IMG/VR virus record: IMGVR_UViG_3300031705_000016
Span: 1-37,021 of that record
Strand: one strand, 5' to 3'
DNA: 37,021 bases
Source: a virus
Shown here piece by piece: positions 1 to 37,021 of this stretch (positions are counted from its first letter, which is position 1; each line of letters begins with the position of its first letter). Under the pieces are notes generated by a model, which was not told where the DNA came from, did no database searches, and saw only the letters and a program-made list of their open reading frames with translations. The position numbers were made by a program, and so were the translations under genes.

Positions 1-900
1 CCACATAAGGTAAGTTTCAATATCAGTAGCAATCTTAGATAAGTGTGCCGCTTCCATGTTTGTGATAAATGTTCTTGTAAGAGATCCGCTTTCAAATGCT
101 TCTCTAGCTCCTGCTTTACCCATGTTAGCAACTAATCCTTCAATACTTGGTACAGATGGGTTGTTTGCGTCAGCGTTAAAGTTTCTCCAAATCTCAGTAA
201 CAGGTACAGTACCATCAGCGTTTAAACCACCTTTGATCATTAAATCTGCTCTAGAAGAAATTGAATAATGAACGTGTGCTTCAGCTCCACCTACAAAGTT
301 GTAGAATTCACGGAAACCAGATCCAGTTTCAATATCAGAGAAACGTTCTCCGTACTCACCTCTTGCAGAACCTTTTCTGAAGAACTTAGTACCTTTAGCT
401 AAATACTTATTATCTAAGCTAGCTGCGTTGTTGTTGTTTACTAATTGAACAGTATAGATAAAACCGTCACCAGCTGGAATGATATCATCCGCTGTAATGT
501 AAAGTTCTAAACCATTGTATTTATCATAAGTGATAATATCACCATGACCAAAAGTTCTTTTAGAAATTTTAATTTTGAATGTAGTACCGTCTACACCTTT
601 TGCTTCACTTGCAGGTTCAATATCCGCTACTATGTAGGGAAGATCTTGTGCAATTGGAGTTTGCCATTTATACTCACCACGTGCATTGTCTACCATGATA
701 GTGTTCTTTCCACCGAATGATGCCATTTGATACAAAGGCATTTCTACCTTTTGTGTCATAGCCCATAAGTCTACTGGACCCATATCCATAGGCTCAGCGT
801 TACCCAACATCTGGGTAAGGTGATAAGAATCTACATGAGAACTAGCTTTGTAGCTTGTATCTCTTAGGAAAATTCCATTGTTTAATACTGGAGTTGCCAT
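1..900 (-). CDS. Major capsid protein, crAss-like, C-terminus beyond the window
   Basis: The reading frame starts with ATG at 900 and stays open for 300 codons to the left edge, so the C-terminus is missing. The protein begins MATPVLNNGIFLRDTSYK and has the look of a crAss-like HK97-fold capsid protein: no long hydrophobic segment, many short beta-rich stretches, and a middle part rich in Gly and Asn. It is the last gene in view of the minus-strand virion block, 45 bp after the scaffold-like gene. The order terminase, portal, acidic protein, this gene is the usual head-gene order of tailed phages. Codon use is smoother and slightly less AT-rich than its neighbours, as expected for a highly expressed protein. 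The family call rests on sequence character plus position. A different major virion protein is possible but less likely. Confidence 0.8.
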   Translation of the reverse strand, partial: MATPVLNNGIFLRDTSYKASSHVDSYHLTQMLGNAEPMDMGPVDLWAMTQKVEMPLYQMASFGGKNTIMVDNARGEYKWQTPIAQDLPYIVADIEPASEAKGVDGTTFKIKISKRTFGHGDIITYDKYNGLELYITADDIIPAGDGFIYTVQLVNNNNAASLDNKYLAKGTKFFRKGSARGEYGERFSDIETGSGFREFYNFVGGAEAHVHYSISSRADLMIKGGLNADGTVPVTEIWRNFNADANNPSVPSIEGLVANMGKAGAREAFESGSLTRTFITNMEAAHLSKIATDIETYLMW

Positions 901-945
901 AATTTTACTTGTTTTTAATTAATTAATTGTTTATATATTTGATTG

Positions 946-2250
946 TTAAATCCTTTTGAAAATGTTGTTGGTTCTTTGTAATTTCTTACCTGCTGGTTTT
1001 CTTTTCTCTTCACTTTGTACACCTAATGAAGATGCACTGTTACTTGCTGATGCAGTCTTCAGTTTTCTTACTGTAGATTCTACACTTTTTTGAGCTCCTT
1101 TATCCATAACCTTTGCCTTATATCCTGCTGGATCAGACAATAACCATAAAGCTTCAGAAATTAAAGTATAATTTGGTTCAACAAATTGGTACTTCTCTAA
1201 AAGGTGACCTAATAGATTTGTATTCTTTCCACTTACTGAAGGATAGCTAGGTTGAACTAAACCATTATATAACATGGCTTGTGTTTTTCTATCTACCTTG
1301 ATATCTCCTAAGTTACCTTCTTTAAGAGTTTCATATACATTTGTCATGTACTGTTTAGAAGCATGTTCTTGTTGCTTCTTCTTTAAGTCTTGCTCTTCAA
1401 GTTTCTTAAGTACAATTTTCTCTTGCATCTTATCTAACTTAGGCTTAAACTTAGCAGCTTGTTTTTCAAGCTTACCTAAATCTTTCCAGATTTCTATCTC
1501 TTCATCTATTTCATCTGAAGTTCCATAACCTGTAGCACCTAAATATTCTTTAATAATTGTTTCTTGATCTGACTCAGACTTAATACTTAATGATTTAGTT
1601 TCTTCAACACTACCTAAAGTATTAAATAATCCTTTTATATCAGTACCTCCATCTGCTACATATCTAGCAGCAACTTGTAATTCTTCTGGTAAACTTGCAA
1701 AAAACTGTTTAGGAGTTTCACGTCTTACTTGATTAGCTCTCTCTTCTAAGTTAGCTTCAATCAATTCTTCCCAGTCTTTCCCTGTGTACTCATCAAATGA
1801 CTTACCGTCATCAAAAGGTACAATTTTTTCAGATTTAACAAGTTTGTCAAATACATCAGAAATACCAGATATAGATTTTCTACCTCTTTTTTCTTTCTTT
1901 TCAATATCCTCATCAGATTCTTCATCTAAAGCATCTAAGATATCATTTGCATCTTCCTTTACTTCTCCTTTTTTTTCACCCACTAACTCATCAAGAGTTT
2001 CAGTTGATGAAGCATCAGGCGCATCTGCTTTAGCTTCCACTTTTGCATCCAAGTTGTCTACACCATCATCATCAGCATCTGCAAAAGAGAAGTCTGCCTT
2101 CTTACTTAATCCAGATAAAATGTTTGGTTTAGACTCATCTTCAGTAGGCAATGTGATATCACTGCCGCTTGGAGCGCCATTGAAGATCTCATCTAAGTTT
2201 ACATCTAATGTTTCTACGTTGCTGTTCACTGTAGTTTCTTTTGTGTTCAT
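946..2250 (-). CDS. Acidic scaffold-like head-assembly protein
   Basis: This 434-residue protein has a very acidic N-terminal third (to about residue 120, many Asp and Glu runs). A Lys/Glu-rich stretch with coiled-coil character lies at about residues 245-310, and the C-terminal tail is short and basic, ending NNIFKRI. That architecture, together with a place between portal and major capsid genes, is typical of phage internal scaffolding proteins, whose basic C-terminus binds the capsid protein. No protease motif is visible. It starts with ATG at 2250 after a 147-bp non-coding stretch, so it may begin its own transcript. It could instead be a structural protein kept in the virion. The scaffold role is inferred from composition and position. 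Confidence 0.6.
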   Translation of the reverse strand: MNTKETTVNSNVETLDVNLDEIFNGAPSGSDITLPTEDESKPNILSGLSKKADFSFADADDDGVDNLDAKVEAKADAPDASSTETLDELVGEKKGEVKEDANDILDALDEESDEDIEKKEKRGRKSISGISDVFDKLVKSEKIVPFDDGKSFDEYTGKDWEELIEANLEERANQVRRETPKQFFASLPEELQVAARYVADGGTDIKGLFNTLGSVEETKSLSIKSESDQETIIKEYLGATGYGTSDEIDEEIEIWKDLGKLEKQAAKFKPKLDKMQEKIVLKKLEEQDLKKKQQEHASKQYMTNVYETLKEGNLGDIKVDRKTQAMLYNGLVQPSYPSVSGKNTNLLGHLLEKYQFVEPNYTLISEALWLLSDPAGYKAKVMDKGAQKSVESTVRKLKTASASNSASSLGVQSEEKRKPAGKKLQRTNNIFKRI

Positions 2251-2397
2251 AATATTGTTGGTTTTAATATTTAGTTCTAAGCCCTATACATACAATATAA
2301 TAAAAGTTTATACATGATCCAACATATTAAACTTATAATATTTGGTATTTATGCAAACTTTTTTGCAGTATATAGCTAACGGTGTTTATTTTTTATA
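2251..2397 (-). other. Non-coding spacer with GTTAGCTATATA motif, hairpin and weak promoter-like boxes
   Basis: This is one of the few gaps in the minus-strand block. Read on the minus strand after the portal stop it contains GTTAGCTATATA (2380-2369). Next comes an inverted repeat TGCAAA/TTTGCA with a 4-nt spacer (2352-2367). Then come a TTTG (2357-2354) and, 18 nt on, TAAGTTTA (2335-2328), which misses the Bacteroidota -7 consensus TAnnTTTG only at the last base. The leader to the ATG at 2250 would be long. A separate transcript for scaffold and capsid is plausible; the promoter assignment is weak. Confidence 0.4.
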
Positions 2398-5142
2398 TTA
2401 TTTATCAGGTTTTTTCACATCATACTTGTTTTTATTCTCTCTGGCAATCTCTAGATCCTTAGAAGCAACGTCTCTTGTTGCTGCTATTTTCTCTCTTTCA
2501 ACCTGGAGTCTTTCTTTCTCCATACTTCCTTTCATTGCCATTTCATCACGCTTCAAATTAGTTTGCTCTCTATATTGAGTAGTCTCTCTAATATCTTTCA
2601 TAGCGTCTTGATAATCAGATACTTTATTCTCATTTACATCTGACATAGAACCATAACCAGCAGCTTTAATCTCTGCTAGCAAGACATCATTCTTTCTATC
2701 TTTATCATTCTCTTGCATTTCAACTTGTAATTTTTGTTGATCCTCTTGTGCCTTAGCAGCAAGTGCATCTTCTTGCATTTTACGTTGTTGTTGCATATCC
2801 TCTGATCTTTGCTTCTCAACTCTTGCTTCTGCATCTTTTAAGATATCAGTCACTTCAGATATAGAATCAGCTTTAACAATGTTACCAAGCTCATAAATTG
2901 ATGCTCCAGTAGTGTTGTTAGTTACTGCCATCTGCTTTAGTTGTTCTAATATAGCTCTGTGGTTAGTTTTAGTGGTTGCAAAGACATTAAAATCTCTAAG
3001 TAATAGATCAGTTCCATTAATGGTAAAATTAACCTTCTGAGCCTCTGTAGAGATGTAAGACAATCTTACACTTGGATTAGTACTATTATAAAATTGTGCA
3101 AGATCAGTTCTCATTTGGTGAACTCTTGGCATCAAGTGATCTGAATGTTGTACAAAATAAACCTCTGTTTGAGCATATGATTGCTGCATAGCATTAACAA
3201 CACCCGTTGCTGTTTCTGCAGATACTGCTCCACCTAAACGTTGTGGATTAATACCAATAGAATCAAAACATTGTTGTTTGAAATGATTTGCTAAAGAAAT
3301 TCTACCCATTAATCTACTAGTCTGCTCCATGTTAAGAGTTTGATAGTGATTAAAGTTTGTAGCGTTTTCTGTATTTGTAATAGATGTATCTAAAGGAAGC
3401 ATTGAAAAATCTTTCATTGCTGTATACGCTTTAGCATAATTGTTCTTACCCCAATCTTCACCCATTGAATGACGTGGTAAAGCATTTTGATCAAACATAA
3501 TCACAGTACCTAATTCATCAATAAGGATGTCAGCTATCTGATTATTAACCATGTTGTAACCTACTTGGTATGCTTTCATTAAATCTACTAAAGAAGTAGA
3601 CCTTGTATTTCTGTCAGAGAATACTCTTCCTTCTACAGGTAATTTACAACCATATAAAGAATTCTCCCCTTTAAATTGGAAAGGAAGTCTTCCCGGTTTC
3701 TCTCTATTAATACCTAAGTAAATAGGATTAACATTATCACCCATTGATGTTCTCCACATTGCAGGAACATTAGGTCCTACTTTAACACCACCCCAAGTTT
3801 CATTGATCCATATCCATTCAATATGTTCTCCTTGTAATAATGTATCTTTTGATCTATTCTTAAATATAGATGTATCATAAACTGGTTTTTCAGTTATTTT
3901 AAATGATTCATCAATTATTTCTTGAGTTACTTCACCATCAAATTCTATCTTAGTTAAATGACCAACTCTTCTTTGAGTCTTCCAATAGATTGTTGATACT
4001 CTCATCAAGTTACCATCACCATGCTGTTCTAAGTCTTCACTTTGAGAAAGTATCTCTGTTAATATATCTCCACCACGCGCTGGGTCTGCTGTTGTATTGC
4101 TTACATATTGTCTGTATGCTAAACCAGGAGCATTTGTATTCCAATCATGTGATCTTGAAGGATCATAATGGGAACCATCATTCTGATAACCATTAACTTG
4201 ATATTGTGCAGATCTTGCAGGATATATTCTTTGTAATGATTCAAGTTGTTTCTCATTCATTAAATATCCGTATTTATCCACCACATCAGATACAGTCATA
4301 AGATCCACTTTACCTACGTAATTTGAATCTGATATATATCTTTGATCTGGAGATTTTTGATAGAATGTTAATACTGGATTCCACAACTCTACATCATAAT
4401 CATCTTCTAACATTCTGAAATGCCAAAACTCTCTATCAGCAATAAGCATATCTCTAAACCCACGCTCTTCAAGTTCTTGCATTCTAAACCTTTCCTCATC
4501 CACATTTAATTGGTGAGTTGCCCATTCTTCCACACTACTTCTATAAGACTTACTAAAATAATCTTCTATTTCTGGTAAACTCTTTAAGTTATCTGGTGCA
4601 AGTTGTTGTTGAGCTTCTTCTGAAGCTGGATCCATACCAGCCTCAATCATTTTTTCAATCAGGCTTCTTTCAGCATCTGCCAACAATACATCTTCAATTT
4701 CTGCTTTCTTCTGTTCAAGCATTTCATTGTATGACTTATCATCCACAGCTCTGAACTGTACTTTATTATATCTCTTGGTGAATTCACCACTCAATACATT
4801 AATAACATTTGGTATAATAGGATAGAACTTTAATTCTAACGCGGAATCATTTTCCTTTGTTAAAACATCCATCATTTCCTTATAATCATTATCTTCCTCA
4901 ACTATATAATCAGTCTTGTCAATAATACCTTTTGCTAACTTGTAATTTTTTAAAAGTCTTCTGGCATTGATTCTTAAGAATTCAACACCTTGTAATTCTA
5001 ACCAATCTAAATTCCATGCTGCCCAATCATCAGTTTTTTCTGAAGAAGGTAAAAACTGTACTGGTTGAGTTAAACTAGAGTAAGTAGGGCCTCCCTCTGC
5101 CTTAGCTCCATTTTTTAACTGCATTGCATTTAATACTTTCAT
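2398..5142 (-). CDS. Portal protein, crAss-like
   Basis: This 914-residue protein directly follows the terminase in the direction of transcription (21 bp gap). Long size, high Asn/Gln/Tyr content and the N-terminal stretch around residues 105-125 (FYPIIPNVINVLSGEFTKR) resemble crAss-like portal proteins, which form the dodecameric DNA gate at one capsid vertex. From about residue 770 to the end the protein is a Gln/Glu/Lys-rich, almost hydrophobic-free segment with strong coiled-coil character, longer than expected for a minimal portal. It probably extends into the head or the barrel. The ATG at 5142 leaves room for an A/T-rich leader. Portal identity is supported by order and length as well as sequence. 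Confidence 0.82.
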   Translation of the reverse strand: MKVLNAMQLKNGAKAEGGPTYSSLTQPVQFLPSSEKTDDWAAWNLDWLELQGVEFLRINARRLLKNYKLAKGIIDKTDYIVEEDNDYKEMMDVLTKENDSALELKFYPIIPNVINVLSGEFTKRYNKVQFRAVDDKSYNEMLEQKKAEIEDVLLADAERSLIEKMIEAGMDPASEEAQQQLAPDNLKSLPEIEDYFSKSYRSSVEEWATHQLNVDEERFRMQELEERGFRDMLIADREFWHFRMLEDDYDVELWNPVLTFYQKSPDQRYISDSNYVGKVDLMTVSDVVDKYGYLMNEKQLESLQRIYPARSAQYQVNGYQNDGSHYDPSRSHDWNTNAPGLAYRQYVSNTTADPARGGDILTEILSQSEDLEQHGDGNLMRVSTIYWKTQRRVGHLTKIEFDGEVTQEIIDESFKITEKPVYDTSIFKNRSKDTLLQGEHIEWIWINETWGGVKVGPNVPAMWRTSMGDNVNPIYLGINREKPGRLPFQFKGENSLYGCKLPVEGRVFSDRNTRSTSLVDLMKAYQVGYNMVNNQIADILIDELGTVIMFDQNALPRHSMGEDWGKNNYAKAYTAMKDFSMLPLDTSITNTENATNFNHYQTLNMEQTSRLMGRISLANHFKQQCFDSIGINPQRLGGAVSAETATGVVNAMQQSYAQTEVYFVQHSDHLMPRVHQMRTDLAQFYNSTNPSVRLSYISTEAQKVNFTINGTDLLLRDFNVFATTKTNHRAILEQLKQMAVTNNTTGASIYELGNIVKADSISEVTDILKDAEARVEKQRSEDMQQQRKMQEDALAAKAQEDQQKLQVEMQENDKDRKNDVLLAEIKAAGYGSMSDVNENKVSDYQDAMKDIRETTQYREQTNLKRDEMAMKGSMEKERLQVEREKIAATRDVASKDLEIARENKNKYDVKKPDK

Positions 5143-5163
5143 TCCGTATTTATTTAGTTAAGT

Positions 5164-7353
5164 CTATTTATAATTTTTGAATCCAGACCTTCTAGGTCTA
5201 TTACTATCAGGCTTGCCAGCACGTCCAATATTTTTGAACGGACTATACTTTAATTTACTGATTTTTTCTGAATTTACCAAAGAATCACCCTCTGATTCTC
5301 TTCTTTTTGTGTATCCTCTGTTTGACTGTTGTATTTTTACAAAGGCAATTAGTGCACCAAAGGCAACCAATCTATCAACATTCAGTCCAGGGTAGTATGC
5401 CAACATTTCCGTTATCAACATAGGATCAGGAACTCTTTCCACACCTAATGTCTGATTTGTAACAACACCATTGATATCAGTTTCTTCATCAATAACCTCT
5501 CTTAGAAATTCTATTGCATAAGAAATTAAGTGACTCTTAAATAGTGTTCCTGTATTCTTCCATCCATATTCCTGATAAACAGTTCTATTAGAACCAAGAT
5601 CTTTAAGGAATAAGATTTGTTGTTTTGGAACCAGGTATCTTTGTTTCTTTCTAGCAATCATATGTTGAATGAATAGAGAAATATTATTCTCAACAAGTGT
5701 CCATGCGTTATACCACTCAATTATCAACTCTAATCTTTCATGTGTTCTGTTGATATCATCAAATCTACCACACCAAGCAGCAACAATCTTATCTTTCTCT
5801 AAGAATTGTTCTACATCACCTGCAGCAGTTGTTCTAGTAACTTCAGTTGCATTCTTGTATACAAAAATACTACATAATGAATCTGAAGTAGTTGTCTTTC
5901 CTTCTGATACTGGATCAATAGAGGCATAATAAGCACCAAATTCAGGTCTCTTAGCAGCTGGTCTTTCCCATACCACTATTGTTCCTGTTTTATCAACTTG
6001 CTTCTTATCTACAGGGAATTTAGTGATTGGAAGTTTATTTGTTCTCTTAGCAAATATTCCTTTCTCATCTCTGTCTAATTCAATCAGCTCATAAGGGTAT
6101 TCCTTTTCCTCAATTCTTTTCTTCTGTCTTGTAAGTATACCTTGAGGGAATATAGATTCTTTTCTATAAGCAAATGCCTCAGCAATATTCATTGGTTTCT
6201 GAGAAATTCTTAATTGGTATGCTTCTCCATTTAATTCATTTTTCCAACGGGATCTTTCTTCAATGATTGCTATAACTGCCTCTTCAACTTTAGAGTTTCC
6301 AAACTTATCTATAAATGGAGGCATAGACCATTGCTCCGGAATAAACAAACCTGCCATTCCAATAGTACCATCCTTATCCATAAGATTGGTTTCTACAGAA
6401 TATATGTCATTTGCTTTAGGGTTTAAGATCATCTCTTTCAGTGGATTACATTGTTGTAAATCCCCCACTGATCCTGCTGCAATAAACATACCTGTAGTCA
6501 TCATCCCTGAAGACATTGCTGGACGTAAGTATTCATATGTCTCACCCATCTTAGGAGCAATACCTGCTTCTTCATGGAAGAATATTGTACACGGTCCACC
6601 TACTCCTGTAGTTGCATTTTTCTCAAATGAACCACCTTGTATTTTAGACTTTAATCCTCTGGCTGTTTTTCTATTACCTATCTTAACTTCAATTTGCTGT
6701 TGCCATAATAACACCTTTTCTGGATTACTAGGTCTATACCAAGCAGTATGTTCATTAAGAAACGTTTTATATTCATCTAAGAATTTCCAAGAACCTTTAT
6801 CATTGATAAAATCTTTCAAAGAGGCCCCTATCTTACAGATACTACCTTCTTCAAACCAATATGTATTAATGATCTTTCCCATATGGAAATATGAGGAAGC
6901 TATCTGACGTTTTTTTAATATTGCTGCATGTTGATTATTCAATTCAGCTAATAGTTCATACAAAGCCATGTGATACTGAGCATCTCTTACTTTTGCAAAA
7001 CCATATTTCTTTTCTTCCTTGTCAAATATAGGTAGAAAGTTTAACCACATATAATAATCTCTGGTTAGGAAAAAACTCCTCCCCTTATCATTATATATTA
7101 CACCTTCTCTACACTTAGTCTTCTGATCTTCCCAGTAATTAGTAAAATCTTTTGACCTGAAAGGGCTATTACAATAAAAACCTTGGTCATTAAACGCTTT
7201 AGCCTCTGCATTGAACTCATAGGCCATGTCTGTAAATCCATAAAGACCAGGTTCACTGAATATACTTAATATATATTCAATGAAATCTGATTCTTCTTTA
7301 AACTCAGTTGTTTCCCACTTGCCATTATTATATGTAGGTACAATCTTATACAT
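5164..7353 (-). CDS. terL: Terminase large subunit
   Basis: This is the 729-residue packaging motor. The ATPase half shows a deviant Walker A-like segment, KKRQIASSYFHMGK (about residues 147-160), and a clear Walker B, TIFFHEEAG (about 256-264) with adjacent acidic residues. The RNase H-fold nuclease half has the motif ASIDPVSEG (Asp480) and a late Asp in GLNVDRLVAF near residue 690, the usual metal-binding positions. The length fits crAss-like terminases. Its start overlaps the end of the GroES-like gene by 8 bp, so the two are translationally coupled. It cuts and threads the concatemeric genome into proheads through the portal encoded next. No small terminase is recognised nearby, although one of the unknown small proteins upstream could fill that role. 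Confidence 0.93.
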   Translation of the reverse strand: MYKIVPTYNNGKWETTEFKEESDFIEYILSIFSEPGLYGFTDMAYEFNAEAKAFNDQGFYCNSPFRSKDFTNYWEDQKTKCREGVIYNDKGRSFFLTRDYYMWLNFLPIFDKEEKKYGFAKVRDAQYHMALYELLAELNNQHAAILKKRQIASSYFHMGKIINTYWFEEGSICKIGASLKDFINDKGSWKFLDEYKTFLNEHTAWYRPSNPEKVLLWQQQIEVKIGNRKTARGLKSKIQGGSFEKNATTGVGGPCTIFFHEEAGIAPKMGETYEYLRPAMSSGMMTTGMFIAAGSVGDLQQCNPLKEMILNPKANDIYSVETNLMDKDGTIGMAGLFIPEQWSMPPFIDKFGNSKVEEAVIAIIEERSRWKNELNGEAYQLRISQKPMNIAEAFAYRKESIFPQGILTRQKKRIEEKEYPYELIELDRDEKGIFAKRTNKLPITKFPVDKKQVDKTGTIVVWERPAAKRPEFGAYYASIDPVSEGKTTTSDSLCSIFVYKNATEVTRTTAAGDVEQFLEKDKIVAAWCGRFDDINRTHERLELIIEWYNAWTLVENNISLFIQHMIARKKQRYLVPKQQILFLKDLGSNRTVYQEYGWKNTGTLFKSHLISYAIEFLREVIDEETDINGVVTNQTLGVERVPDPMLITEMLAYYPGLNVDRLVAFGALIAFVKIQQSNRGYTKRRESEGDSLVNSEKISKLKYSPFKNIGRAGKPDSNRPRRSGFKNYK

Positions 7354-8249: not shown

Positions 8250-8528
8250 TTAAAGGTTGGCTTCCATGTATCCAATAATTGTTTCAGCACTATCAGTCAC
8301 TGTAATTGGTACAGGTTGAGGTTGCGTTCCTATATATAAAACAGATATACCAGGAATAATTTTTTTAGTTGTTACATCCCAGTAGGGACCAACACCTATT
8401 ATATATTTTCTATCAACATTTAAAGGTTGTTCTGAACCTCTAACCCAATCAACCCCTGTTGGACCTCCTCCATTACCACCATATGTTGGTGCTAATTGTA
8501 CTTGTGTTAATTCTACTACTGTTGCCAT
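8250..8528 (-). CDS. Small Gly/Pro/Thr-rich protein, unknown
   Basis: The protein has 92 residues and starts MATVVELTQVQLAPTYGGNG. The first 25 residues are rich in Gly, Thr and Pro, followed by alternating hydrophobic residues that suggest a small beta-sheet domain (KYIIGVGPYWDVTTKKIIPG). There are no Cys, no transmembrane segment and no signal peptide. The start shares one base with the stop of the upstream nuclease gene (TAATG), so the two are probably co-translated. Composition and location suggest a minor virion or decoration protein, but this is only an inference. Confidence 0.7.
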   Translation of the reverse strand: MATVVELTQVQLAPTYGGNGGGPTGVDWVRGSEQPLNVDRKYIIGVGPYWDVTTKKIIPGISVLYIGTQPQPVPITVTDSAETIIGYMEANL

Positions 8529-9340
8529 TATTTATTTTCTTTTAACCATATCATAAGAGAAGCCACTTCATCTTTTAAATATGGGAGTTCATATATTTTA
8601 ACTTCCTTTAAAACAGGTTCACCATTTAGTATTTTACTAATAGGATAACCATTTGAGTCTTCACCTACAGTTTCAAACTTAACATGTTGTATTGTTAATT
8701 TACCAATCTTTAATTTGGGGTTATGCTTCTTAATAATATACGCATAAATACTCAGTTGTAGGTTATAATGCTTGATATTACAATCATCTAAGTGATTAAC
8801 AGGCTTATACAATTTGTTTGTAATACCCTCCCAATTAGTGTATCCTTTCTCTTTGATTTCCTTATTTGTTTTGTAATCATGAATGTTAATATACCCATCA
8901 ACTACTTCAACTAAATCAGCTTGACCACATAGTGCCATTGATTTTAAATACACCATGTGTTCCGGGTATACTCCTTCTTCAAGCTTTTGCTTAGGTGCAT
9001 ATTTCACACCATCTACATCAATATCAGGCTTAATAATAGGTACTTCAATTCCATTACGTTCAATGGTTGTAAAGTCTAGCATATCAGCCTCTCTTTGGTT
9101 ATGATACCAATTACCTAATTTAATAGCTCTATTAGTTTCATTATCCCAAGCAGTAAGTATTTCTTTTGGTGTCATACCATGCCACTTTGAACGCTTATTC
9201 TTTGATGATCTTTTTGCTTGACCATCTCTATCAAATTTAGGTTTGAATTTCCCTATGAAAGATGTTACACTAGTCCAATCAATTTTATCTTGATCATTAC
9301 TTTCATAAATGTGCCCTTCTTCTTTAAAAATTATTGCCAT
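8528..9340 (-). CDS. PD-(D/E)XK nuclease, RecB/Cas4-like
   Basis: The 270-residue protein carries the ordered motifs of RecB-family exonucleases. GNWYHNQRE supplies an early His (His80). CGQADLVEVV provides Asp142, and INIHDYKTN the Asp155-x-Lys157 core of the PD-(D/E)XK fold. HYNLQLSIYAYI (Gln195, Tyr199) is the QxxxY helix. No iron-sulfur Cys cluster is visible, so it is RecB-like rather than Cas4 proper. It probably trims or degrades DNA, either host DNA or phage recombination and packaging intermediates. It is unusual in sitting inside the virion block, whereas the second such nuclease in this window (from 36564) sits in the replication block. Confidence 0.85.
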   Translation of the reverse strand: MAIIFKEEGHIYESNDQDKIDWTSVTSFIGKFKPKFDRDGQAKRSSKNKRSKWHGMTPKEILTAWDNETNRAIKLGNWYHNQREADMLDFTTIERNGIEVPIIKPDIDVDGVKYAPKQKLEEGVYPEHMVYLKSMALCGQADLVEVVDGYINIHDYKTNKEIKEKGYTNWEGITNKLYKPVNHLDDCNIKHYNLQLSIYAYIIKKHNPKLKIGKLTIQHVKFETVGEDSNGYPISKILNGEPVLKEVKIYELPYLKDEVASLMIWLKENK

Positions 9341-30800: not shown

Positions 30801-31178
30801 ATGAAGAATAAAAAATGGTTCATCCCCGGATCAGTTCCCTCTTCTAAGAATGGAAGAAGATGGACTGGTAAATACTTTATAGCCAGCAAGGCTGTAATGA
30901 ATTATAGAAAAATAGCCAAAGACTATTATGCAAAATATGCAGATGAATTCAAAGCTGAATTAGCAAAGCATGAATTACCAGCAAGAATTGCATTTACATT
31001 TATTAGAGGTTCACGTCATAAATTTGATTATTTAAACCCTGCACAAACTGTACAGGATGATATGGTTAAAGCAGGATGGATAGAAGATGATAACGCTGAA
31101 TTTATAAATCCAGTATTTGTACAATATATTTATGATAAAGAAAGCCCAGGTGTTTATATAGAAATATTAAAAGACTAA
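30801..31178 (+). CDS. RusA-like Holliday junction resolvase
   Basis: The 125-residue protein fits RusA: N-terminal FIPGSVPSSKNGRRW, then the basic helix, and the Asp cluster FDYLNPAQTVQDDMVKAG with WIEDDNAEF. These Asp residues (about 75, 88 and 98-99) bind metal in RusA, which cuts four-way junctions in late replication and recombination. The standard length is about 120 residues. Located immediately after the primase (2 bp gap). Confidence 0.88.
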   Translation: MKNKKWFIPGSVPSSKNGRRWTGKYFIASKAVMNYRKIAKDYYAKYADEFKAELAKHELPARIAFTFIRGSRHKFDYLNPAQTVQDDMVKAGWIEDDNAEFINPVFVQYIYDKESPGVYIEILKD

Positions 31179-31181
31179 CTG

Positions 31182-31487
31182 ATGAGTGATATCACATTTG
31201 ATGAATTTTTTACATTAAGGAGTCTATTGAATGGCTCTGAAGAAGATTATCAAATTGCTATAAGTAATTTAGATAACTTAGTATATAATGATAAAAAGAT
31301 AGTTGACATATTATTTATTAAATCACTGTACGCTGAGAAGAGACAATCTTTTCTAAAATGTGGTGCTTTAGAAAATGAAATTATGTACAGACCAATCTTA
31401 TTAATGGGAAAGGCTATCTACTCCCGTATCTTAAAAGAAGCAGATAAAAAAGTATATAAACAAATACTCAAGGAAATAATGAAATAA
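31182..31487 (+). CDS. Small helical protein, unknown
   Basis: The 101-residue all-helical protein (MSDITFDEFFTLRSLLNGSE) is rich in Lys and Leu. It sits between the RusA-like gene and the VWA/metallopeptidase gene, 3 bp after the former and 11 bp before the latter. It is possibly the first member of the MoxR-VWA module. No motif identifies it. Confidence 0.68.
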   Translation: MSDITFDEFFTLRSLLNGSEEDYQIAISNLDNLVYNDKKIVDILFIKSLYAEKRQSFLKCGALENEIMYRPILLMGKAIYSRILKEADKKVYKQILKEIMK

Positions 31488-31498
31488 ATTAAAGAAAT

Positions 31499-32662
31499 AT
31501 GCAGAACATACAAGACTTAGTTGCTAAGACAACTAAAGAATTAATTTTAGATGAGCCTTTTTATGGGCTCTTTTTAATTGGTATCAATAAGCAATACAGT
31601 GATAAGATTCCTACAGCAGGGGTTAGTAAACATGGTATTGGTATGCAGTTAACTATAAATCCAGAGTTCTATATAAACTTAAGCTTGCCTCACAGGGTAG
31701 GATTAATTAAACATGAACTGTTGCACATTGCATTTGGACATTTATTAATGAGAGATTTATACTCAGATTTTAAACTATTTAATATAGCAGCGGATCTAGA
31801 AATAAATCAATATATAGACAGTGACAAGCTACCAGAAGGTGGTTTATTACTATCAAGTTTTCCAGAATTAAATCTTCCTACTAAGGCAGGGACAAAAGTT
31901 TATTATAATCTTTTGGAACAAGCACAAGAAGATGGTACATCACCTTCATTAGATAACCTAATGGATAGTATGAACGGAGAAACTGAATATGATCACTCTA
32001 CATGGGCTGATTTTGATGACTTATCTGAACCAGATAAAAAGCTAATGCAAAAACAAGTTGAACACCAGTTAAAAGACGCTGCTGAAACAACTATTAAAAA
32101 GCAAGGGCATATACCTGGAGAATGTAAGGAGTTAATTGATAGATTATTCCATGTTGAACCTGCCAAATTTGATTGGAAACAATATTTAAGAAGATTTGTG
32201 GGTAATTCTAGTATAGTATATACAAGAAAGCTGAGACGTAAGTATAACAAACGTTATGCTGAGAATCCTGGCCTTAAGATCAAATTTAAAAATCACATAC
32301 TTGTTGGTATAGATACATCAGGATCAGTTAATACAGATGAGCTCAAAGAGTTTTATAATGAGCTACATCACATGTCTAAGACAGGACATAAAATAACTGT
32401 TGCACAATGTGATACAAGTTTGAATTCTGTTAAAGAATTTAATCCAAAACAAGCATGGGAAATTAACGGAAGAGGTGGAACATCATTTCAACCAGTAATT
32501 GATCATTTCAATGAAAAGAAAGGGACATACACGGCCCTTATCTATCTAACTGATGGTGAAGCATATCCACCACATAATTGCCCATCAAATACTTTATGGG
32601 TGTTAAGTAGCATCTCTGACATGAATGATGATTTACCAGGTAAAGTTATAAAATTAAACTAA
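31499..32662 (+). CDS. VWA-domain protein with HExxH metallopeptidase-like domain (CobT/ViaA-type)
   Basis: In this 387-residue protein the N-terminal half has the zinc motif LIKHELLHIAFGH (HELLH, His72, Glu73, His76), followed by AADLEINQYI, where a third ligand is usual. The C-terminal half is a VWA domain: LVGIDTSGS (272-276, MIDAS DxSxS), GGTSFQPV and IYLTDGEAYPP. This combination (a DUF2201-type peptidase-like domain plus VWA) normally works with a MoxR-type AAA ATPase. One is encoded two genes later. It may unfold or remodel protein complexes with metal-dependent binding. Phage function is unknown. Confidence 0.9.
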   Translation: MQNIQDLVAKTTKELILDEPFYGLFLIGINKQYSDKIPTAGVSKHGIGMQLTINPEFYINLSLPHRVGLIKHELLHIAFGHLLMRDLYSDFKLFNIAADLEINQYIDSDKLPEGGLLLSSFPELNLPTKAGTKVYYNLLEQAQEDGTSPSLDNLMDSMNGETEYDHSTWADFDDLSEPDKKLMQKQVEHQLKDAAETTIKKQGHIPGECKELIDRLFHVEPAKFDWKQYLRRFVGNSSIVYTRKLRRKYNKRYAENPGLKIKFKNHILVGIDTSGSVNTDELKEFYNELHHMSKTGHKITVAQCDTSLNSVKEFNPKQAWEINGRGGTSFQPVIDHFNEKKGTYTALIYLTDGEAYPPHNCPSNTLWVLSSISDMNDDLPGKVIKLN

Positions 32663-32664
32663 AC

Positions 32665-33051
32665 ATGGGACGTTATTATAGTGGAGACATTGAAGGGAAG
32701 TTTGCCTTTGGTGCTCAAAGTAGTGGTGCAGCAGATAGATTTGGTGTATCAGGTGAAAGTCCTGGTTATATTGAGTATTTATATACTGAAGATAACTTAA
32801 CAGCTCTTGAAGCTGAACTTAAAGCAATTGAAGCTTCATTCAAAGAGTATAAAACACCTCTTTTAGCTTATTATGATTTATTTGGTGTAGAAGATGATGT
32901 TGAAATAACATTTGAATCTTACATTGAAAAAGGTGATTTTAAACCTATGGGTCCTATTATGCAAGATGATTTCAATGATTATAGAATAGGTAAAAAAATA
33001 CAAAACTGCGTTATAAAGCATGGAGAATGCTCATTCACTGCAGAATTATAA
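32665..33051 (+). CDS. Protein of unknown function in the MoxR-VWA module
   Basis: The 128-residue protein starts MGRYYSGDIEGKFAFGAQSS and has a helical centre (LTALEAELKAIEASFKEYK). The opening MGRYYSGDIEGKF looks like a recurring phage protein of the Bacteroidota. It lies 2 bp after the VWA gene and just before the AAA ATPase, so it may be a substrate or adaptor. Unrecognised function. Confidence 0.75.
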   Translation: MGRYYSGDIEGKFAFGAQSSGAADRFGVSGESPGYIEYLYTEDNLTALEAELKAIEASFKEYKTPLLAYYDLFGVEDDVEITFESYIEKGDFKPMGPIMQDDFNDYRIGKKIQNCVIKHGECSFTAEL

Positions 33052-33076
33052 ACAAAAACAAAAATTAATTAAGAAT

Positions 33077-34345
33077 ATGGCACAAGTAAATTTAAACGTA
33101 ACAGAATTAAAAGGTTTTGTAAACCACATCATTAAGAACAACAGATACTTACAGGAAAGCGGAAAGAGCCCTGTATCAGTAGAAGTAGTTGGTGAATCAG
33201 GGATTGGTAAAACTTCAACTATTGTTGAGTTGGCTGAAGAAAACAAATTAAATTTTGTAAAGTTAAACTTAGCACAGATTGAAGAACTTGGAGATTTAGT
33301 AGGATTTCCTGTTAGACAATTCCAAATGTATAAAGAGACAAAAGTTTCAACAAAAACAAATGATATATCCTATACAGCAGCACAAAGATCAGCTGCCTCA
33401 TCAAGTCTAGCGGCTATGCCTCAAACAAAAACTAAAAAAGTTGGTTTGTGGGTTGATGAACTTGCAGTACAAGAATACCTAAAGAATGGGTATAAAATGT
33501 CAGGTAAGAACAGGATGTCATATTGTCCACCAGAGTGGATTGCAGATGCAAAAGATGGTGGTATTTTATTATTGGATGACTGGAATAGAGCTGATACAAG
33601 ATTTATCCAAGCAGTAATGGAATTAATTGACCGTCAGACTTACATCTCATGGAAATTACCAAAAGATTGGCATATCATCTTAACAGCAAATCCAGATAAC
33701 GGAGACTATATGGTTAACAGTGTAGATAGTGCACAGAAAACTAGATATGTAACTGCTAATCTTAAGTTTGATGTAAACATCTGGGCAGAATGGGCTGAGT
33801 CAGCAGGGATTGATACTAGATGTATTAACTTCTTATTACTTCACCCGGAGCTTGTAACACAGGAAACTAATGCAAGATCAATAACAACGTTCTTTAATTC
33901 AATCTCAAGTTTTGATAGTTTTGAAGAGAACTTATCATTAATTCAAATGATTGGTGAAGGATCTGTTGGAGATGCATTTGCTTCTATGTTTACTACATTT
34001 ATTAATAACAAACTTGATAAATTAGTTACACCAAAAGATTTATTGACTCATGACAGTGAATCATATATCTTAGGAGAACTAAGAAGTTGTATTGGTAAAG
34101 ATGATACATACCGTGCTGATATTGCAGCTACATTAGCAACACGTTTGGCTAATTACTCTGTAGTATATTCTAAGGAAAACACAGTTAGTCAGAAGATTAC
34201 TGATAGATTAAAAGCACTTTGTACTAAAGATTACTTCACAAATGATCTTAAGTATTTAGTTGTTAGAACAATATTTAGTGGAAATAAACAAAAGTTTAAT
34301 AAACTAATGATGGTTCCTGAAATTATCAAAATGACAATGAAATAG
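33077..34345 (+). CDS. MoxR/CobS-like AAA+ ATPase
   Basis: I choose the ATG at 33077 (422 residues, MAQVNLNVTELKGFV) rather than one at 33020 that would overlap the previous gene. Walker A is VVGESGIGKTSTI (residues 37-49). Walker B is GILLLDDWNRAD (about 162-173), and HIILTANPDNGDYMV carries sensor 1. A regulatory helical C-terminus follows. This is the MoxR/AAA_5 layout, acting as a chaperone with a VWA partner; the VWA gene precedes it. CobS-like ATPases occur as accessory genes in several marine phages without a proven role. Confidence 0.9.
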   Translation: MAQVNLNVTELKGFVNHIIKNNRYLQESGKSPVSVEVVGESGIGKTSTIVELAEENKLNFVKLNLAQIEELGDLVGFPVRQFQMYKETKVSTKTNDISYTAAQRSAASSSLAAMPQTKTKKVGLWVDELAVQEYLKNGYKMSGKNRMSYCPPEWIADAKDGGILLLDDWNRADTRFIQAVMELIDRQTYISWKLPKDWHIILTANPDNGDYMVNSVDSAQKTRYVTANLKFDVNIWAEWAESAGIDTRCINFLLLHPELVTQETNARSITTFFNSISSFDSFEENLSLIQMIGEGSVGDAFASMFTTFINNKLDKLVTPKDLLTHDSESYILGELRSCIGKDDTYRADIAATLATRLANYSVVYSKENTVSQKITDRLKALCTKDYFTNDLKYLVVRTIFSGNKQKFNKLMMVPEIIKMTMK

Positions 34346-34356
34346 AATTTAAAATT

Positions 34357-35403
34357 ATGGCAAATAAATCAGTTTATCAAGATTTTGATACTGATGCATT
34401 AAACCACTATGGTCTAGCAGCAGCTCCTAAATTAGGAGTTGTTGTTGGTTCTATAGTAGAAGATGTATTGGTTACTCAAGATCAAACAACATTTGAAAAA
34501 ATACAAAGGTCTCTATCAGTTCCAACTGAATCAGGGACTACGTTTATAAATAAAAAGAAAGCATTCATTCTACCAAGATGTGACGTATCACAAGACAGGT
34601 TGAAAGCAGCTTTGAAAGAACATGGAATTGCTGTTACAAATGATTATACTTTAGCAGATCTTATTGTAGGTCATGAAGATATATACAGAAGATTTGAGAA
34701 CAGTGAGAATATCATGAGTTCAATAATGATGTCTAAACTTTGGAACTATGAAACAACTAGTGGTGCAGGGGGAAGCAGTCTTCCTTTAAACACCATAATT
34801 GAAAATCATGGAAAAGTAATTGTAACTCATAAAATAACTGAAAAGATCAGATACTATGATTTGAATATTGAAACTTCACTTTATGATGAATGGTTGATTA
34901 CAGGATTGGCATTAAACTTAGCTTATCTAATTGATACAACTGGAGGAGATATTTCAGTTATAGATCCTGAAACCGTATTGCATAGTTCTGCTAATAAGGT
35001 AGTTATGGATGAAGAACTTTTAAGTGATTTATCTAGACAGCTTCAGGCATATGGAGATGATAATAAAGCAATGGCTGCTAAAATGATTCCATGTATTGAT
35101 TACACTAAAAATTTTCATTTACTATGGAGGTTTGCACAAGATAATGATGGCAATATGTACTCCTTTAATAGGGATAAAGATATTCAATATTGGTTATCAG
35201 TATCAAACTTTAATAAATTCACTAGACTATCTGCACAGGATATGATATTGTGGTTAGAAAAGAAAGAGTATTTGAATGCAGTATCATTTAGATATTTAGA
35301 GCCTATAGTTAGAAGAGAAATAAGCATACACAACAGAGATCTTTATACATTTAAAGTGGCTGTAAAAAAAGAATACCAACAATATTTAGGTACTAAAACT
35401 TAA
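34357..35403 (+). CDS. Unknown protein A, paralogue of the next gene
   Basis: The 348-residue protein of unknown fold has a segment at residues 68-114 (KAFILPRCDVSQDRLKAALK, then TLADLIVGHEDIYRRF) that aligns with residues 71-118 of the following gene. So does a later stretch (SRQLQAYGDDNKAMAAKMIP with NDKDNRSLALEMLA there). The 68-114 region resembles a strand-helix-strand with a cluster of acidic and hydrophobic residues. No known motif. It begins 11 bp after the AAA gene and is likely the substrate or partner of that machine. Confidence 0.75.
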   Translation: MANKSVYQDFDTDALNHYGLAAAPKLGVVVGSIVEDVLVTQDQTTFEKIQRSLSVPTESGTTFINKKKAFILPRCDVSQDRLKAALKEHGIAVTNDYTLADLIVGHEDIYRRFENSENIMSSIMMSKLWNYETTSGAGGSSLPLNTIIENHGKVIVTHKITEKIRYYDLNIETSLYDEWLITGLALNLAYLIDTTGGDISVIDPETVLHSSANKVVMDEELLSDLSRQLQAYGDDNKAMAAKMIPCIDYTKNFHLLWRFAQDNDGNMYSFNRDKDIQYWLSVSNFNKFTRLSAQDMILWLEKKEYLNAVSFRYLEPIVRREISIHNRDLYTFKVAVKKEYQQYLGTKT

Positions 35404-35407
35404 AACA

Positions 35408-36571
35408 ATGAAAAAAAGATATCAAGTAAACTGGAACCAATCAGAAGAAAATGTCACAATAGTGAATGGTAAATGTAAATTAAAAGCATCAGCGTTTGAT
35501 GTTCTATCTGCAGGTACATGGGTTGGGCATAGTAATGATTATGCTATAACAAAAGCAGATAAAGTAAGAATTGGTGTTGATTTTAAAACACCAGATACAT
35601 TTACAATACAGGATAAAACCATATATAGATTTCCTAAGTTGGATTTACCTAGACAAAAGGTGGATTTACTTAAAGAAAAATACAATGTCAAAGTAATTAG
35701 AGACCCAAATAAAGCAGATATTCATGTAATTTCAGATAAGTTATTTGATAGCATATTTGATTACAATTGGCAAACATCATCAACGTTTCTACACTTCTTT
35801 AAGGTATTAAAAAAACTAAAAGAAGATGATCACCTAACTGTAGGTGCATTAGAAAAAGTTAAAGATATAATGGAAACTGTTGGTGTAGACTCAATGGTTA
35901 AATTAGAAAATAAGTATAGTTATAGACACAACAGTTATTCCAATCCAGATGCAACTTCTATATTTTTAGATATTATAAATGGATTATGGTTAAATGAAGA
36001 AGTTAATATGAATAAGGACATCATCATTGATGATAAAAATATTCAAGATTTCTTAGACATTAAAAACAGTAGTGCTACAGTTCTTTATGATACTGATGTT
36101 ATAGGTATTATAGATGGCCAACTTGCTGTAATTGATAATGTAGAGTATGAAGGTATCCGCAAAATGATAGTTAGTAATGATAAAGACAATAGGTCATTAG
36201 CATTAGAAATGCTAGCAAATTGTAATGTGGATAAATCATATGATGTAGTCTCAAGTATTTTTTACTGGGAATACAACTGGCTAAAAGATACCAATAACTG
36301 GAATAGTGTAAATGTTAAAGCATTAAGAAAAAGACTAAAGGAATACCAAGGTGGACCTTGTACTTCTAATATATATGCTTATAATAAATACATTAATAAT
36401 TTGGTTAAAGATGATAAATTAACTGAATATGCAGTAAATGAAACAAGAAAGAAACTGTATCATGAAGTTTTAGGAAACCTTGTTGGTACTACTGCAGATG
36501 TTTTTGAAGTAAAATTTGAGAACTTGGAATTAAAAGAAAAATTAATACAAAAAATAAAAACAGATGAATAG
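35408..36571 (+). CDS. Unknown protein B, paralogue of the previous gene
   Basis: The 387-residue protein is related to protein A in two segments: FPKLDLPRQKVDLLKEKYNV (75-94) with ADIHVISDKLFDSIF, and LALEMLANCNVDKSYDVV near residue 260. The rest diverges, with a Lys-rich N-terminus and a helical C-terminus (FEVKFENLELKEKLIQK). The tandem duplication followed by divergence suggests two related subunits or adaptors of the MoxR-VWA module. Its stop (TAG, 36569-36571) overlaps the start of the final nuclease gene by 8 bp. Confidence 0.75.
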   Translation: MKKRYQVNWNQSEENVTIVNGKCKLKASAFDVLSAGTWVGHSNDYAITKADKVRIGVDFKTPDTFTIQDKTIYRFPKLDLPRQKVDLLKEKYNVKVIRDPNKADIHVISDKLFDSIFDYNWQTSSTFLHFFKVLKKLKEDDHLTVGALEKVKDIMETVGVDSMVKLENKYSYRHNSYSNPDATSIFLDIINGLWLNEEVNMNKDIIIDDKNIQDFLDIKNSSATVLYDTDVIGIIDGQLAVIDNVEYEGIRKMIVSNDKDNRSLALEMLANCNVDKSYDVVSSIFYWEYNWLKDTNNWNSVNVKALRKRLKEYQGGPCTSNIYAYNKYINNLVKDDKLTEYAVNETRKKLYHEVLGNLVGTTADVFEVKFENLELKEKLIQKIKTDE

Positions 36572-37021
36572 AGACTTAGAGAAAGAAAGGATATTTTATG
36601 CAAAAAAAGGTTTTTGCTTTAGTTACTCCTCACTAAACAAATTATTATTTTCACCATCCTTATTTTATAAGGAATATATTATGTTTGACCGTGAGGTTAG
36701 AACAGACACCCACCTTGTTGAAGGTAAACTTGTGCATTGCTTATTGTTTGAACCAGAAAAGGTATTGGAGAAATTCAATCTTGTTCCTGGTAGAGCACCA
36801 AGTGATAATATCAAAAAAGTAATGAAAGATATGTCTCTCTTTACTGATGCAGAATCATTAGCTGATTGTTCAGAACAAGCTCTTGAATCATTAAAAACTT
36901 TAAATCTTTTCCAGTCTCTTAAAACAGATGAGCAAAGAATTAAAAAAGTTATTACTGAAGATAATGAACCATATTGGAGTTTCTTAAGTAACACTAACGT
37001 TGATGTTGTAGATCATGATAC
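36564..37021 (+). CDS. PD-(D/E)XK nuclease, N-terminal part, continues beyond the window
   Basis: An open frame of 152 codons runs from ATG at 36564 to the right edge. Its start shows the hallmarks of RecB/Cas4-type nucleases: FSYSSLNKLLFSPSLFYKEY (S-x-S-x-L-x-x-L-x-x-S-P, residues 19-38) and LVEGKLVHCLLFEP, with His58. The catalytic D...ExK core would lie beyond the edge. It overlaps the upstream gene by 8 bp. It is probably the replication-block nuclease for recombination, unlike the copy in the virion block. Confidence 0.85.
   Translation, partial: MNRDLEKERIFYAKKGFCFSYSSLNKLLFSPSLFYKEYIMFDREVRTDTHLVEGKLVHCLLFEPEKVLEKFNLVPGRAPSDNIKKVMKDMSLFTDAESLADCSEQALESLKTLNLFQSLKTDEQRIKKVITEDNEPYWSFLSNTNVDVVDHD

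Follow-up and report, generated by a model that had tools for sequence, protein, structure and literature searches.

A gene cassette encoding a MoxR-type AAA+ ATPase (MoxR), a protein that joins a metallopeptidase-like domain to a VWA domain (VWA) and two tandem paralogues (PA and PB) was found in a 37,021-nucleotide stretch of a virus record (IMGVR_UViG_3300031705_000016, positions 1 to 37,021; the window). The source is a marine phage that, judging by its genes, is of Crassvirales type, a relative of crAssphage. The MoxR-VWA pair is universal in this marine crAss-like clade and occupies one place in the replication block, together with an unannotated, duplicated partner family to which PA and PB belong. 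Neither the family libraries nor searches of open-access papers turned up such a tie between the pair and a partner family within a replication block of crAss-like type. Our favored, though tentative, reading is that the cassette encodes an ATP-driven protein remodeler or peptidase with clade-specific adaptors, which would act on replication or recombination complexes.

Conservation and linkage of the cassette

Loci of relatives were gathered with four anchors (PA, PB, Sak4 and MoxR), giving contig sets that overlap and represent approximately 91 distinct phages (the count of distinct exonuclease C-termini, a rough proxy). Every locus that covered the interval carried all four of VWA, MoxR, PA and PB, whether the anchor was PA (68/68), PB (146/146), Sak4 (33/33) or MoxR (59/59). 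The Sak4 set is the fairest of these, since Sak4 lies outside the cassette, although it is confined to the same clade (best 80 Sak4 matches). The cassette lay within the plus-strand replication block in all relatives spanning the interval, and in 250 of 258 loci the gene immediately preceding VWA was of A101 type, encoding a small protein considered below. A first-pass annotation of the window had tied its reading to the recurrence of these genes in other phages, and they do recur; nor did the paralogues turn out to be known, unrelated enzymes, the other outcome that it saw as damaging.

The open reading frames called by that annotation are in place on the plus strand (Table 1) and form a real cluster between genes for a RusA-like resolvase and a PD-(D/E)XK exonuclease. 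Its five-gene composition holds for VWA, MoxR, PA and PB; the fifth member, the MGRYYSGDIEGKF protein (p128, from 32665), was present in 9 of 80 loci and was rejected as a core part of the cassette. That A101 (from 31182) shares a module with PA and PB had gone unnoticed at first pass.

Conservation of MoxR (median identity, 87%) and VWA (80%) is on a par with that of the replicative helicase (90%) and Sak4 (85%), whereas PA (64%) and PB (43%) diverge, PB being the fastest-evolving among the four genes VWA, MoxR, PA and PB; the median for A101 is 34%. With identity falling from 87% to 34%, the motor is fixed while its partners diverge, a pattern that would be predicted were PA, PB and A101 in contact with variable targets.

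A scan of a genome collection with PA returned a single match, on a contig (L176; WLWP01000004.1, 114,697 bases) binned in a Pseudomonadales metagenome-assembled genome. The contig carries the full replication block of the cassette phage type, so the match gives no host information, and its presence there is probably phage contamination of the bin. In another locus (L125:4955-5902), PA is broken into three overlapping open reading frames, perhaps by frameshifts or assembly errors.

The ATPase and its metallopeptidase-VWA partner

The motifs of MoxR comprise a Walker A (GESGIGKT), a Walker B (LLLDDWNRA), a sensor 1 asparagine and a conserved arginine that is a candidate arginine finger, the full set looked for in an AAA+ protein. 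Together with the phrog_1297 match (E = 9.6e-35), they place the protein in the MoxR family, as the first-pass annotation had it. Pfam cut-offs were missed (AAA_5, 20.9 bits versus 22; AAA_3, 15.6 versus 27), and the closest solved chains are those of Midasin (E = 9.4e-6). The Walker motifs are kept in 48 to 49 of 49 clade members, and in all 49 the Walker B ends in DD rather than DE, most relatives carrying the glutamate; this substitution suggests altered ATP hydrolysis in the MoxR clade.

VWA exceeded the Pfam cut-offs for both halves of its family (PF13203, DUF2201_N, 1.4e-16, 61.4 bits versus a cut-off of 23.2; PF09967, DUF2201, 2.9e-16, 60.1 bits versus 26.4) and matched phrog_1314 at 3e-63. 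These matches, the HELLH motif (residues 72 to 76) and the metal ion-dependent adhesion site (MIDAS; DTSGS, residues 272 to 276) agree with the VWA/HExxH partner described at first pass. Eight residues (H72, E73, H76, D272, S274, S276, T328 and D352) are kept in 52 of 52 clade members, and zinc binding and peptidase activity are predicted from the conserved motif. The HExxH and the MIDAS D-x-S-x-S are also kept in the VWA of N4, SP-058, MTATph1, AD45-P1, S-TIM5, PBS1, FV3, Va1, K64-1 and Madawaska, ten phages that span several lineages and in eight of which the MoxR partner was aligned as well. MoxR-VWA machines are widespread in phages, 557 phage records containing a VWA relative.

It had also been suggested that phage versions of such pairs are often mislabelled as cobalt chelatase (CobS/CobT). 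A misnomer does exist, but it is a different one: phrog_1314 and RefSeq label VWA an "HNH endonuclease". The families that the pair fits are phrog_1314/1297, not the CobS family phrog_249. A Pfam scan of the window's VWA protein found no HNH domain. The label is a naming error, exposed by this analysis, that many phage records apply to a zinc-peptidase/VWA protein. Identity with CobS/CobT itself was rejected (phrog_249, 4.1e-5, versus phrog_1297, 9.6e-35; no CobT family match), as was identity with RavA/ViaA, no such family being among the Pfam or NCBIfam matches.

A record filed as "Bacteriophage sp." (MT836813.1) holds a MoxR-DUF2201 locus with ABC transporter, sortase-like, sirtuin-like and S6/SSB-like genes. 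It was rejected as a phage relative, being a bacterial locus by gene content; the zinc motif of this gut bacterial VWA relative is lost (HMLLH).

In several relatives, these active-site codons are interrupted by mobile elements. Group I introns with GIY-YIG endonucleases split MoxR at or just after the Walker B codons (LLLDDWNRA|D) in three loci (Table 1), and a fourth locus (L365) has a split and exon ends identical to those of L368. Within the HExxH codons of VWA, a group I-like element with a LAGLIDADG endonuclease was found in L363, below the Rfam cut-off (40 versus 50 bits, E = 1.5e-8), and VWA is split in the same way in L366 and L367. For L365, L366 and L367, the elements are presumed to be present because exon ends or split positions match. 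In needed genes, the codons under the strongest constraint are common places for mobile introns to settle. Their location in the Walker B and HExxH codons therefore supports the view that both active sites are in use.

PA, PB and A101 form a family of candidate adaptors

Pairwise comparison of PA with PB was not significant (phmmer, 2 to 3 bits; BLASTP, E = 1.7). Profile-profile comparison related the two at E = 8e-4 (local) and 8.6e-5 (global), while control profiles of nine other proteins of the block scored 0.015 or worse against PA. AlphaFold2 models of PA and PB (predicted local distance difference test, 86.6 and 87.7) matched the same four viral proteins in BFVD (E = 5.7e-6 to 3e-10), with no further match scoring under 0.1. 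In one locus, a third tandem copy (X) lies between PA and PB and matches both the PB profile (1.4e-33) and the PA profile (2.6e-8), so that PA, PB and X constitute one family with at least three tandem members there. The first-pass annotation was right to see two tandem paralogues with a segment in common, and their relatedness extends over most of both proteins. A101 belongs here too, given a PB-A101 profile-profile match (E = 7.5e-4) and matches of a hidden Markov model of the PB module to A101 relatives (3.1e-6 and 2.4e-5).

Two of the four BFVD matches come from one phage, ctz6O13, which may therefore hold a PA/PB pair too; PA-like structures are present in both ctz6O13 and ctYsL76. TM-scores were only 0.3 to 0.46 with a large root-mean-square deviation, and hence the domain arrangement differs. 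No credible match to PA, PB or A101 was found in Pfam, PHROGs, NCBIfam or PADLOC. When 50,697 phage records were searched by tblastn with PA, PB and a further two, divergent members of the PB group, there was no match or chance matches. Profile searches found no PA in ten phages and no PB in five reference phages, nor any sequence match to either in the PDB, where a fold search with PB yielded nothing under E = 0.001.

The conserved N-terminal segment of PA and PB (KKAFILP...ALKEH...TNDY..ADLI) has a beta-alpha-beta topology. Weak matches to BRCT came from Pfam for five of 30 PA members (PF00533; best E = 0.048), from a phage BRCT protein for the PA model (E = 0.18) and from the PARP1 BRCT domain for the PB model (probability 0.97 over 50 columns, E = 0.13); no PB member matched Pfam BRCT. 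The helical C-terminal half has weak matches to helical-repeat proteins, and one PB member matches nSTAND_NTPase4 (E = 0.025).

Genomic context

Portal (phrog_6547, 1.2e-85), terminase (phrog_6681, 2.6e-63) and head proteins of the window match PHROGs, the portal and head proteins falling in phage head-and-packaging families. The terminase matches phage records at 22% to 26% identity, mostly Crassvirales among the top tblastn matches listed. Related terminase, portal and head proteins, as well as bipartite, divergent gene blocks, were thus found as in Crassvirales: structural genes occupy the minus strand from 1 to approximately 12 kb and replication genes the plus strand, with a skew switch at approximately 12 to 14 kb. 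A second exonuclease-family gene (phrog_298, 5.1e-22; 8528-9340, minus strand) lies within the structural block.

The plus-strand order is helicase, g179, Sak4, 224-amino-acid protein, primase, RusA, A101, VWA, p128, MoxR, PA, PB and exonuclease. A 107-kb IMG/VR contig (L001) contains copies of PA and PB at 100% identity, and there the exonuclease is full-length (PDDEXK_1, 1.6e-7). The last 8 bases of PB lie within the exonuclease gene, and the gap from PA to PB is 4 bases; these distances are compatible with a single transcription unit. A scan for promoters and terminators gave no clear excess over shuffled sequence, promoter-like sites being fewer than in the shuffles and terminator-like sites within their range.

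Table 1. Features of the window and, where a locus prefix (L) is given, of related contigs.
Feature	Coordinates	Strand	Description
DnaB-type helicase	26848	+	
g179	27821	+	
Sak4	28364	+	
224-amino-acid protein	29080	+	Candidate single-stranded DNA-binding protein by position only; no family match
Primase	29821	+	
RusA	30801..31178	+	RusA-like Holliday-junction resolvase, conserved upstream neighbor; PF05866, 1.6e-5; phrog_1682, 2e-19
A101	31182..31487	+	~100 amino acids; helical module of ~40 residues common to PA and PB; directly upstream of VWA
VWA	31499..32662	+	DUF2201 zinc-metallopeptidase-like domain (HELLHx4H) and VWA domain with complete MIDAS
p128	32665..33051	+	MGRYYSGDIEGKF protein, optional passenger; phrog_33624, 9.9e-12
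MoxR	33077..34345 (start ATG 33077)	+	MoxR-type AAA+ ATPase; phrog_1297
PA	34357..35403	+	Paralogue 1, candidate adaptor with a possibly BRCT-like N-terminal segment and a helical C-terminal half
PB	35408..36571	+	Paralogue 2, candidate adaptor
Exonuclease	36564..37021	+	PD-(D/E)XK exonuclease, cut by window end, conserved downstream neighbor; phrog_412, 0.0017
Paralogue X	L398:6977-7996		Third tandem copy
MoxR intron	L064:3444-4510		Group I, GIY-YIG
MoxR intron	L368:4500-5572		Group I, GIY-YIG
MoxR intron	L398:4131-5138		Group I, GIY-YIG
VWA intron-like element	L363:3231-4328		Group I-like, LAGLIDADG

Proposed function and alternatives

We infer that the cassette products form one complex. 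MoxR would assemble into an AAA+ ring, as its family does, and VWA would dock on this ring and, by analogy with CbbQO and Rea1, grip an acidic ligand of the target through its MIDAS. The N-terminal HExxH domain could then cleave or trim the target or a partner, as its conserved zinc motif would predict. Obligate linkage and fast divergence suggest that PA, PB and probably A101 serve as adaptors, selecting the target or keeping hold of it, and the idea that the two paralogues are target-recognition subunits, put forward at first pass, is plausible. The weakest step concerns the targets, which may be phage DNA replication or recombination complexes: the location of the cassette within this block in all relatives, fixed between primase/RusA and the exonuclease, and an analogous AAA ATPase in another crAss-like phage (cr10_1, described below) point that way.

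Several observations weigh against this interpretation. Substitution of aspartate for the Walker B glutamate throughout the clade may mean that the ATPase is slow or regulatory. The BRCT-like and HEAT-like or helical-repeat readings of PA and PB are weak leads (E = 0.05 to 0.2). In the Cellulophaga crAss-like phage phi14:2, a single small gene separates RusA from the exonuclease, and profile searches of that phage found no DUF2201 match and neither PA nor PB; the machine would therefore be dispensable for crAss-like replication generally, and the position of the cassette in the replication operon may be historical. In addition, Iyer et al. 2021 (PMC7824862) propose a role in virion assembly for the related pair.

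Following that proposal, and a report for Acidianus two-tailed virus, MoxR-VWA could be a chaperone or peptidase that helps to assemble or process capsid or tail proteins, with PA and PB as assembly cofactors. We consider this unlikely here, as the portal, terminase and head protein genes form a separate block (1-7353) on the strand opposite to the cassette, which itself keeps to the replication block.

An improbable alternative, too, is a host-takeover or counter-defense machine that removes a host protein, such as an RNA polymerase partner, a nuclease or a defense sensor, while PB and A101 track host targets. The much faster divergence of PB and A101 than of the motor pair and the duplication of the family (X) would fit this role, as would the ties of cellular MoxR-vWA pairs with a third subunit to conflict systems (PMC7159879). 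The cassette, however, is universal in the clade and fixed in place, and PADLOC gave just a weak, partial match of MoxR to DolB (E = 0.0021). Counter-defense genes are usually patchy in distribution.

In a third alternative, PA, PB and A101 would serve replication or recombination as accessory proteins, sharing no more than an operon with MoxR-VWA and forming no machine with it. The order of RusA, primase, Sak4 and exonuclease is just as fixed, so that linkage by itself does not set the cassette apart, and the PA-like structures of ctz6O13 and ctYsL76 come from phages that might lack MoxR/VWA. This reading is quite unlikely, as A101, PA and PB, members of one family, bracket VWA-MoxR directly with short gaps or overlaps.

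Within the favored interpretation of an adaptor-guided remodeler or peptidase, a more specific version is speculative and has a low probability. PA and PB would represent a new adaptor family, its BRCT-like and helical-repeat module having given rise by duplication to A101, PA, X and PB. The family would recruit a zinc protease driven by MoxR to recombination intermediates or the ends of DNA, where it strips or digests proteins stuck on DNA. If so, this would be an ATP-dependent phage machine resembling DNA-protein clearance of the SPRTN/p97 type, built from unrelated parts. The cassette offers a concrete test system of four to five genes in which the catalytic residues are known and a family of candidate adaptors is at hand; no target of a phage MoxR-VWA system was found in the literature outside an archaeal virus.

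Comparison with known systems

The cluster had initially been taken for an undescribed machine, which does not hold for its core. Iyer et al. 2021 (PMC7824862) describe a MoxR and N-terminal-metallopeptidase-vWA pair in group 2.2 jumbo phages, and the pair is known from other phages and is found here in further phage lineages. As in the jumbo-phage pair, the MoxR gene of the cassette adjoins a vWA gene with an N-terminal metallopeptidase domain, and the HExxH and MIDAS are conserved in the cassette and the ten other phage VWA. Unlike that pair, the one in the cassette sits in a replication block and is tied to A101, PA and PB, partners that the passages found in that paper do not mention. Schitoviridae gp24/gp25 (phage N4) and other phrog_1297/phrog_1314 pairs likewise consist of the same two families in adjacent genes; they are labelled "ATPase" and "HNH endonuclease". 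Profile searches found no PA/PB relative in N4, AD45-P1, S-TIM5, MTATph1 or PBS1.

A precedent for the motor-adaptor arrangement is CbbQO (PMC4660213), in which a MoxR-type AAA+ motor works with a VWA protein whose MIDAS binds an acidic ligand on the target. The passages on CbbQO and Midasin/Rea1 describe no HExxH domain; the targets are rubisco and pre-ribosomes, respectively, and Rea1 is one fused protein. The MoxR-vWA ternary systems of VMAP, iSTAND and FtsH types described by Kaur et al. 2020 (PMC7159879) combine MoxR and vWA with a third component that differs between systems and is a proposed sensor or adaptor. These systems are cellular, biased to multicellular bacteria and have a single third component. 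Apart from the nSTAND_NTPase4 match of one PB member, PA and PB had no Pfam match of VMAP, iSTAND, FtsH or beta-propeller type, although the presence of VMAP models in Pfam was unchecked.

The gut crAss-like phage cr10_1 (NC_055875.1; L177:6796-8926) encodes a CobS-like AAA ATPase (phrog_249, gp10) and a DUF7192 protein (gp09), possibly a divergent VWA, between Sak4 (gp11) and primase. The AAA and partner families differ from those of the cassette, and a profile search found no PA/PB in this phage. Like the cassette, however, cr10_1 places an AAA+ ATPase beside a partner of unknown function inside a crAss replication block.

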